The notes beneath the pieces were generated by a model that worked only from the letters and a program-made list of their open reading frames with translations, searched no databases and was not told the origin of the DNA. This document shows, piece by piece, positions 20,191-22,640 of a stretch of 64,000 nt of DNA. The stretch lies in NCBI GenBank assembly GCA_028289425.1, contig JANQPL010000011.1, forward strand, positions 186,001 to 250,000, given 5' to 3'. Position 1 is the stretch's first letter. Every line of letters begins with the position of its first letter. The translations under genes were made by a program, and so were the position numbers. The stretch comes from Alphaproteobacteria bacterium (GTDB taxonomy: Bacteria > Pseudomonadota > Alphaproteobacteria > JANQMY01).

Positions 20191-20835
20191 CTAGTAGTTG
20201 GGAGGTCGTTCTAGAATTTCACTCGACAGAAGCTCAGAAAGCCAATGGCGAAAACCCTTTCGGGCATCTTCTTCCGACAGGCCGATAATTGGCGCGAGCA
20301 CTGGACCGGACAGTCCATCGCCGATGGCGGCAATCGCAGCCAGATAGACGGCGAACTGGGTGTGCAGCCGGGCTTCGGGCGATTCGGCCCCACCCGTCGA
20401 GGATTTGCTTTGGGCAAGCAGCGCTTCCACCACATCCTGCAGCAGCCGGTCGACAACGTCTTCCTGGCCCTCTCGGCGCTGGCCGGTCAAAGCAAGCCAG
20501 GCCATCAGACGGGCATGCCCCCGATCCGCCAGAACTTCGAAGACCTCCTGAAGAATGCTGTCGCTTTTCGACCCATCCACACTCTCGCTAGAAAGTCGTT
20601 CTAGTATATCGCTGAGGAGGCGCTGCATCATGTGGTCCGACAGCATGCGCTGCAATTCCGACGTGGAACCGAAATGATGGAGCAGTGTGGAATGGGCAAT
20701 GCCGGCGTCACGGGCCACATCGGCCACTTTCAGCCCGTCGGGCCCATGGGCCGCCAGGCGCTTTTGGGCGGTTTCTAAGATAAGGGCGCGGGCTTCTTCA
20801 GGTGTGCGGCGCTTTCGGCGGTCGGTCGTGGCCAA
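20191..20835 (-). CDS. TetR-family repressor of the COQ4-like gene
   Basis: The 214-residue protein has a TetR-type N-terminal helix-turn-helix (GLKVADVARDAGIAHSTLLHH, residues about 36-56) and a variable ligand-binding C-terminal half. It is transcribed away from the COQ4-like gene, with 112 nt between the starts. That gap holds three copies of TAT(C/T)(G/T)AC-N6-GTCGATA, which are very likely its operators. This suggests repression of the COQ4-like gene and autorepression, relieved by an unknown small ligand. Confidence 0.88.
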   Translation of the reverse strand: MATTDRRKRRTPEEARALILETAQKRLAAHGPDGLKVADVARDAGIAHSTLLHHFGSTSELQRMLSDHMMQRLLSDILERLSSESVDGSKSDSILQEVFEVLADRGHARLMAWLALTGQRREGQEDVVDRLLQDVVEALLAQSKSSTGGAESPEARLHTQFAVYLAAIAAIGDGLSGPVLAPIIGLSEEDARKGFRHWLSELLSSEILERPPNY

Positions 20836-20849
20836 GGGATAACTTTCTT

Positions 20850-20916
20850 TATCGACAGTTTAGTCGATAGTTATTGACAATTCTGTCGATAGTGCCTATC
20901 TACAGGGGCGTCGATA
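20850..20916 (+). promoter_or_regulatory. Three TetR operators over the COQ4-like promoter
   Basis: Operators: 20850-20869 (TATCGAC-N6-GTCGATA, perfect dyad), 20872-20891 (TATTGAC-N6-GTCGATA) and 20897-20916 (TATCTAC-N6-GTCGATA), start-to-start spacings 22 and 25. A sigma-70-like promoter, TTGACA (20874-20879), 17-nt spacer, TATCTA (20897-20902), runs through them. Operator 2 covers the -35 and operator 3 the -10, so binding would block RNA polymerase. Operator 1 lies toward the repressor gene start. Confidence 0.82.
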
Positions 20917-20947
20917 GTATACGGCCATCTCAGGGAACAGGACGACC

Positions 20948-21706
20948 ATGACTACAGACACACTCCCCCAACCTTCCTACAAGATTGAACCCCTAAAGGC
21001 CATTAAAGCGCTGCGCGCCCTGGTGCGCGAGCCGGAGGACACCTCACAGGTCTACACCATTATCGAAGCCCTCGCGGGAAAGTCCCATCTGCGCACGACG
21101 GAGCAGTTCAGCCGATCGGAGAAGGGCGCCGCAATGCTGGCGGAGCGCAATGAGCTGCTGGATACCCTCGTGGACCGCGAGGCGTTGTCGAAGCTGCCCG
21201 ACGGGTCCTTCGGCCGCGCCTATCTTGATTTCCTCATCCGAGAGAATATCAGCGCGGAAGGCCTGATCGATGCCGGCGAACATGTGCGGAATCCCGAAAA
21301 CCAAGCCACCGATGAAGCGTTTGTGGGCCGCCGCTTGCGGGAAATGCATGATCTTTGGCACGTGCTGACCGGCTATGGCCGGGACGGATTCGGCGAGTTG
21401 TGCGTTCTGTCGTTTTCGACCGCGCAAAACTGGAACCCCGGATTTGCGGCGATCATCGCTGTCGGCACGCTCAAGATCGCCCGAGACGCGTCGCTGATCA
21501 AAGTGATGTCGGCGGTGCGCGAAGCCTATCGCCACGGCAAGCAAGCGAAATGGCTTCTAGAACAAGATTTTGAGCACTTGCTGACCCTGCCGCTGCATGA
21601 AGTGCGCGCCAAGCTGAACATCAACGTGCCGCTGGTCTACAAATCGGCATACGACATCATCGAGGCCACCAGACCGGAAGCGCGCGGGGAATTGGCAGCG
21701 GCTTAG
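20948..21706 (+). CDS. COQ4-like ubiquinone biosynthesis accessory protein
   Basis: The 252-residue protein has the COQ4 signature RRLREMHDLWHVLTGYGRD (residues about 129-147) with the Zn-binding HDxxH and a following Glu in FGELCVLSF. Eukaryotic COQ4 organises the coenzyme Q biosynthetic complex; some bacterial homologues are found with lipid or terpenoid genes. Cytoplasmic, no signal peptide. It is controlled by the divergent TetR gene through three operators, which is unusual for a core quinone gene and suggests a conditional, perhaps ligand-induced role. Confidence 0.85.
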   Translation: MTTDTLPQPSYKIEPLKAIKALRALVREPEDTSQVYTIIEALAGKSHLRTTEQFSRSEKGAAMLAERNELLDTLVDREALSKLPDGSFGRAYLDFLIRENISAEGLIDAGEHVRNPENQATDEAFVGRRLREMHDLWHVLTGYGRDGFGELCVLSFSTAQNWNPGFAAIIAVGTLKIARDASLIKVMSAVREAYRHGKQAKWLLEQDFEHLLTLPLHEVRAKLNINVPLVYKSAYDIIEATRPEARGELAAA

Positions 21707-21738
21707 GCACTGTACCCTGTCCCGTATTGTTTCCATTG

Positions 21739-21853
21739 TCATCCCGGACGCAGCGCAGCACATAGTGGTGCGCTGCAGATCCGGGATCTCTTAAATTTCT
21801 TGGATCCCGTGTCTGCGGCGCAGCGTTTCACGCTGCACCGCGCACGGGACGAC
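21739..21853. repeat. Palindromic intergenic repeats downstream of the COQ4-like gene
   Basis: atcccgga (about 21741) pairs with tccgggat (about 21779) over an inner cagcgca/tgcgctg arm. A second unit (atcccgtgtctgcggcgcag to cacgggac) follows. They resemble common alphaproteobacterial intergenic repeats and may act as transcription end structures between the convergent genes. Confidence 0.55.
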
Positions 21854-21854
21854 A

Positions 21855-22640
21855 TCATGTGTGTCTCTCAATGAACGCGGCGACCGCCGCGTTGAACGCC
21901 TCGGCACCGTCAATATTGACGGCGTGGCCGGCGTCGATGTCGACCACTTCCAACGACGGCAGGACCTGTTCTGCAAAACGGCGATGGGGATCGAACCGGG
22001 TTTCCCTTGTGCCCACCACCAGCAAGGTGGGCACCTTGGTGTCGGCAAACCGATCCGCCTGAGAGCCGCCGGCCAATGTGTGCTCGAAGGTGAGCGCCAG
22101 GGACGCAACATTGATGAGTGCTGCTTCCTCGATCAGCTTTTCGCGGGCAATCGGATCCAGCCGCTTGGCATGCAGCGGATGGATCGGCATGTCTTCCACT
22201 TTCGCCTTGCCGGCCGCCAAGACCTTTCCCTGTTTGGCCGCCCCCTCCACCATGCGTTTTGCGTCGTCACCCCGGGACAAGGCGGACGCCGAATTGGTGA
22301 AGACCTGCCCCAGAATGCGGTCGGGGCGTTCCAGGGCATAGCGCAGAGTGAGGGTCGCACCGAAGGACTGGCCGCAAATGAACCATTGATCGGCACCGAT
22401 GGCCTCTCGAATGGCCTCGAAACCGGCAATGTATGCGCCCGGTGCATAAGCTTCAGGCTCCATCGGGGCCGGCGATTTCCCGTGGCCCAACAGATCCACG
22501 GTTATCGGACGCGCAACTTTCTTCAGAGGTTCCACATTGTAGATCCACTGGGCTGTGCTCGACAGCATGCCGTGGACCAGCAGCAAAGGCGGCCCGTTGC
22601 CGCCATGATCTTCCCAATGCAGCGTCGGCGGCATGGTCAC
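21855..22640 (-). CDS. Alpha/beta-hydrolase
   Basis: The 261-residue protein shows the oxyanion strand LLLVHGML near residue 20, the nucleophile elbow GQSFGAT near residue 90, an acidic residue after strand 7 (GTRETRFDPHRR) and a late HAVNIDG that supplies the catalytic His. It belongs to the esterase / epoxide hydrolase / C-C hydrolase superfamily. Its start codon overlaps the stop of the upstream SDR gene by 4 nt, so the two are translationally coupled and probably act in one pathway. Substrate unknown. Confidence 0.88.
   Translation of the reverse strand: MTMPPTLHWEDHGGNGPPLLLVHGMLSSTAQWIYNVEPLKKVARPITVDLLGHGKSPAPMEPEAYAPGAYIAGFEAIREAIGADQWFICGQSFGATLTLRYALERPDRILGQVFTNSASALSRGDDAKRMVEGAAKQGKVLAAGKAKVEDMPIHPLHAKRLDPIAREKLIEEAALINVASLALTFEHTLAGGSQADRFADTKVPTLLVVGTRETRFDPHRRFAEQVLPSLEVVDIDAGHAVNIDGAEAFNAAVAAFIERHT

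Follow-up and report, generated by a model that had tools for sequence, protein, structure and literature searches.

The window analysed here, a 64-kb stretch of an alphaproteobacterial contig, contains a divergent gene pair coding for a TetR-family regulator and a Coq4-like protein, with three palindromic sites in the intergenic region between them (Table 1). The element downstream of coq4 is possibly a terminator or a repeat relic.

Table 1. Features of the tetR–coq4 locus, with positions given in the window
Feature	Position	Strand	Description
tetR	20191..20835	-	TetR-family regulator of 214 aa; start codon TTG; transcribed divergently from coq4
Candidate operator O1	20850..20869	.	TATCGACAGTTTAGTCGATA; perfect palindrome TATCGAC-AGTTTA-GTCGATA; ~15 bp upstream of the tetR start codon
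Candidate operator O2	20872..20891	.	TATTGACAATTCTGTCGATA; fits the family consensus TATYGACA-N4-TGTCRATA without mismatch; contains the -35
-35 hexamer of the coq4 promoter	20874..20879	+	TTGACA, assigned from sequence; inside O2; built into the operator family-wide
Candidate operator O3	20897..20916	.	TATCTACAGGGGCGTCGATA; weakest of the three; over the putative -10 and the likely transcription start
Putative -10	20897..20902	+	TATCTA; inside O3; 17 bp after the -35; 3/6 match to TATAAT
Likely ribosome-binding site	20939..20942	+	AGGA, inferred from sequence; 5 nt before the coq4 ATG
coq4-like gene	20948..21706	+	252 aa; HDxxHx11E metal motif; Pfam Coq4
Palindromic element downstream of coq4	21715..21860	+	Double palindrome, strongly folding (z-score -6.8); found once in the window

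Both proteins can be assigned to their families with confidence. The regulator scores 35 bits against Pfam TetR_N (cut-off 24), and its AlphaFold model (pLDDT 87) displays a TetR fold of nine helices with an all-helical C-terminal ligand domain. The best PDB matches of the model all belong to the TetR family (TM up to 0.66/0.73) and include many lipid- or drug-sensing regulators (EthR2, FasR, FadR, RutR), none of them a specific match. Likewise, none of the named NCBIfam TetR equivalogs (BetI, RutR, FadR, AcrR and others) exceeds its cut-off, the best being BetI with 30.8 bits versus 201. The Coq4-like protein scores 98.6 bits against PF05019 (cut-off 22.9). Its HDxxHx11E motif consists of H134, D135, H138 and E150 and is present in 94 out of 94 relatives when a spacer of 11–12 residues is allowed. 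The model of the protein (pLDDT 91.5) matches Alr8543 (6e12; TM 0.69/0.81), a protein of the Coq4 fold that was crystallised with oleate and magnesium. Cyanobacteria, the source of Alr8543, are not known to make ubiquinone, and the Coq4 fold is thus not tied to the ubiquinone pathway.

The initial annotation, made from the sequence alone, had proposed that the TetR protein controls coq4 through three sites of the form TAT-NN-AC-N6-GTCGATA. This pattern matches the forward strand exactly at the three positions listed in Table 1, with start spacings of 22 and 25, and has no further exact match elsewhere in the window. The sites are thus confirmed. The form given to them is half-asymmetric, offers a partial view of the family consensus and hides the true 20-bp palindromes, TATCGAC-N6-GTCGATA, in which 7-bp arms surround six bases and which have no arm mismatch in O1 and a single one in each of O2 and O3. 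One such site arose in 2 of 200,000 shuffles of the intergenic region and two sites in none, and the three palindromes are real, non-random features. Only one other match with at most one mismatch exists in the 5.4-Mb genome (C3:291249), and it lies inside an ORF. A wider regulon in this genome was rejected, because all other near sites examined, namely ten with no more than two mismatches to the family consensus and C3:291249, are located within ORFs.

The divergent tetR–coq4 pair recurs in a sister species from the same genus (G001, L027; also L064), with 69% identity between the TetR proteins and 78% between the Coq4-like ones; TetR residues 26–58, including the HTH, are identical in the two species. 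The operator arms are conserved at 40 out of 42 positions (95%), compared to 11 out of 18 in the six-base cores and 33 out of 52 (63%) in the remaining intergenic DNA (arms versus everything else intergenic, p 8e-5). In the sister species, the arms of O1 (14 out of 14 positions) and O2 are fully kept, whereas O3 is degraded (12 out of 14), suggesting that sites 1 and 2 matter most. TTGACA, TATCTA and the spacing between them are also unchanged.

It had further been claimed that the -35 and -10 elements fall inside the second and third operators. Placement of the -35 in O2 is a good assignment, whereas that of the -10 in O3 is plausible only, considering its poor match to TATAAT. A simple promoter scan did not list the TTGACA/TATCTA pair and proposed TCGACA-18-GACAAT instead. 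Across the related loci described below, a -10-like hexamer (at least 4/6) is found 16–18 bp past the operator TTGACA in 27 out of 46 cases, versus ~14% at random places. The idea that the two divergent genes share a symmetric double -35 was considered and rejected, since the tetR strand shows no -10 enrichment.

A search with the Coq4 alignment yielded a set of 80 named loci, while the window TetR alone gave no matches in the named genome collection. The TetR proteins linked to coq4 form one subfamily, in which R7, R9, H48, H53, H54, F55 and W113 are invariant; its members have in common an RxRR, a recognition region of the form GxxHxxxxHHF and a ligand domain that is conserved. With the window and the two copies of the sister record included, the divergent tetR–coq4 regions number 47, and TATYGACA-N4-TGTCRATA (at least 12 of 16 positions) is present in 46 of them. 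In total, these regions contain 73 sites compared to 1.2 expected from dinucleotide shuffles, with the reservation that the consensus was partly derived from the same loci and that related genomes are not independent. The motif-bearing loci come from Kordiimonas, Parvibaculum, Pseudomonadales, SAR86 and records titled Deltaproteobacteria or Binatia. Most loci have one operator and many have two, typically 24–35 bp apart, with the -35 inside an operator; the three well-formed operators of the window are, on this comparison, an elaboration of its genus. A contig titled as a Klebsiella pneumoniae MAG (L137) contains a tetR–coq4 pair like those of environmental Gammaproteobacteria, and the bin is probably mislabelled.

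The operator and the TetR subfamily occur together. Among 90 coq4 genes with enough upstream DNA, scored at a threshold of at least 13 of 16 positions, 52 have both the subfamily TetR and the operator, 33 have neither, 3 have the TetR only and 2 the operator only, so that the motif is largely missing where the subfamily is missing. When mapped on a tree, the independent contrasts between TetR and operator all point in the same direction and are too few for significance. In one of the two operator-only cases (L072), the gene is an additional coq4 located on the L068 contig, not far from the TetR of L068. In the other case (G010), the TetR ortholog is encoded elsewhere in the genome (L180 1869-2594), and the coq4 promoter (L029 3540-3690) keeps two operators 34 bp apart. 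The displaced tetR has no operator site of its own, implying that autoregulation of the O1 type is not general. In Kordiimonas-type genomes (L065, L066, L067, L069, L070 and L071), coq4 genes are arranged in tandem, and in each case the second copy has an operator of its own. Moreover, whole-genome scans of seven genomes with a slightly loosened pattern gave zero-mismatch sites in five genomes, with every such site at a coq4 promoter, while the reversed control pattern gave 0–1 matches. As the best copies of the motif in whole genomes fall at coq4 promoters, the regulator looks dedicated to coq4 as its one target. Three points follow directly from sequence comparison: site, TetR subfamily and coq4 are linked, they are conserved, and the best sites are restricted to the promoters of coq4. 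Together, the sister-species, 47-locus, co-occurrence and whole-genome comparisons strongly support the switch proposed in the initial annotation, and make TetR control of coq4 very likely. Since repressor, site and gene recur across several bacterial classes, the pair is, as far as sequences can tell, an old and dedicated switch that turns a non-core gene on and off, and not a local oddity. A conserved surrounding pathway was rejected, as nothing beyond tetR and coq4 is kept around the module across classes.

The genome of the window (G000) has two additional coq4 paralogs. The second (L032 3425-4888, on G000:C17) follows, at a distance of 10 bp and in the same orientation, a TetR gene other than the one in the window; the third, more distant one (L033 3706-4494, on G000:C15) adjoins an aldo/keto reductase-like gene. 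The search for a second, constitutive coq4 suggested earlier thus ended with two paralogs, one of them directly behind another tetR, and a constitutive copy is not evident. In L030, L031 and L080, too, coq4 has TetR neighbours that belong to other subfamilies. Given these cases and that on G000:C17, coq4-like genes may have come under TetR control on more than one occasion.

We infer the following scheme, in which binding, repression, autoregulation, the ligand and the enzymatic step are all proposed. A TetR dimer would bind the 20-bp palindrome TATYGACA-N4-TGTCRATA and, in the window, would occupy three copies: O1, adjacent to the start codon of tetR; O2, covering the -35 of coq4; and O3, spanning the probable -10 and transcription start. 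Bound TetR would block RNA polymerase at coq4 and probably limit tetR itself. A small ligand would free TetR and turn coq4 on. This ligand is probably lipid-like, judging from the oleate bound by the Coq4 fold of Alr8543 and the generic TetR fold matches, and it could plausibly be the compound on which the Coq4-like protein acts, or one related to it. The Coq4-like protein itself would be a metal-motif, lipid-binding enzyme carrying out an accessory, conditional step outside the constitutive ubiquinone pathway. The explanation as a whole, a dedicated two-gene repressor/coq4 module with ligand release and an accessory role of Coq4, seems to us likely.

Two other readings concern the sites themselves. 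The three palindromes might be part of a promoter or repeat element and not TetR sites, as TTGACA is itself a -35 hexamer and part of the motif would be conserved regardless. However, the far arm is kept despite having no promoter role, the palindrome is missing from coq4 promoters that lack the TetR and the near matches examined in the genome include no dispersed intergenic copies, which renders this reading highly improbable. TetR-family proteins can also activate transcription besides repressing it, and the regulator could be an activator or dual regulator of coq4, as LuxR/HapR-type TetRs can be at similar sites. Indeed, LuxR activates some promoters, and its consensus, TATTGATAAATTTATCAATAA (PMC2680268), departs from the present motif mainly in a single symmetric base pair. 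Yet the sites here lie over the -35 and -10 rather than upstream, TTGACA is already a consensus -35, and both the divergent arrangement of the genes and the local reach of the regulator are typical for repressors of the TetR kind. Repression thus remains the preferred reading, and we consider activation improbable.

The initial annotation regarded tight repression as unexpected for basic quinone synthesis and suggestive of a specialised role. The non-core status of the gene is supported by its distribution, with Coq4 found in only 33 out of 290 alphaproteobacterial genomes, and by the ubiquinone-type UbiA and other monooxygenases in the window genome; the specialised role is likely. The monooxygenases, encoded elsewhere in the genome, are of the UbiH and salicylate-hydroxylase classes. 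The latter is encoded at L167 1501-2691 (G000) and could, by sequence class, be a UbiN. No UbiD was found in the window genome, which is near-complete, or in those of the sister species and G010. UbiD is present in 20 out of 21 alphaproteobacterial TetR–coq4 genomes reached via the search for relatives (Kordiimonas, Parvibaculum and their kin), and in none of the 17 searched TetR–coq4 genomes not named alphaproteobacterial. Across the class, it is found in 11 out of 33 genomes with Coq4 versus 131 out of 257 without (p 0.065). Given this p-value and the UbiD in most alphaproteobacterial TetR–coq4 genomes, Coq4 as a general replacement of UbiD was rejected as a rule.

These distributions bear on a further alternative, according to which C1 oxidative decarboxylation in the ubiquinone synthesis of this UbiD-less organism is performed by the Coq4-like protein, with TetR as a feed-forward sensor of its polyprenyl-hydroxybenzoate precursor. 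In humans, this reaction has been reportedly assigned to COQ4 (PMC11495197); the window genome contains UbiA but lacks UbiD, which leaves room for a ubiquinone role, and the searched carriers outside named Alphaproteobacteria lack UbiD as well. However, nearly all alphaproteobacterial carriers reached via the search for relatives have UbiD, and the comparison of UbiD with Coq4 across the class gives a p-value of 0.065. Furthermore, half of the genomes of the class lack UbiD, and most of those also lack Coq4, so other enzymes must perform the C1 step there. In Rhodobacter capsulatus this is done by UbiN, a salicylate-hydroxylase-like monooxygenase (PMC10626278), and the window genome has a monooxygenase of that class. 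On balance, we find the decarboxylase alternative unlikely. Because Coq4 is confined to so few genomes and most other alphaproteobacterial TetR–coq4 carriers have UbiD, a conditional accessory role in lipid or quinone metabolism is, by our judgement rather than by computation, considerably more probable than one in core ubiquinone synthesis.

COQ4 is a human disease gene whose catalytic role was reported only recently. A dedicated, conserved repressor offers a direct handle on the bacterial homologues, in that the ligand releasing TetR from its operator would point to the compound handled by bacterial Coq4. With the operator motif, regulated and unregulated coq4 genes can moreover be told apart by sequence, and the switch is more general than was visible from the window sequence alone. 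Tentatively, and with somewhat more doubt than conviction, we suggest that this TetR subfamily is ancient and undescribed and serves as the dedicated sensor of the bacterial Coq4 substrate, and that its ligand would reveal a conditional quinone or prenyl-lipid branch in Alpha- and Gammaproteobacteria and deeper proteobacterial lineages.

A literature search on TetR with COQ4 returned unrelated papers only, and none describing this regulator was found. The module adds a new example to a well-known class of regulators, one whose target is undescribed. It shares with divergent TetR-family repressors of the TetR/tetA, AcrR and TtgR kind the TetR_N domain, the all-helical fold, a divergent neighbour as the target and palindromic operators over the -35 and -10 of that target; however, the target here is a coq4 homologue and not a pump, and no named NCBIfam family fits. 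In its fold and its HDxxHx11E motif, the Coq4-like protein agrees with the solved COQ4/PF05019 structures, Alr8543 (6e12) and the N. punctiforme protein (3msq), but is only ~20–25% identical to them and differs in its accessory bacterial distribution and TetR control. Finally, the TetR-type quorum regulators LuxR and HapR of Vibrio recognise operators of the same architecture, TATTGA.A-N4-T.TCAATA, the comparison being one of motifs, which are related but distinct; in the module described here, C-G replaces T-A at the seventh base of the motif, and the regulator appears to be a local one with a single target rather than a global one.
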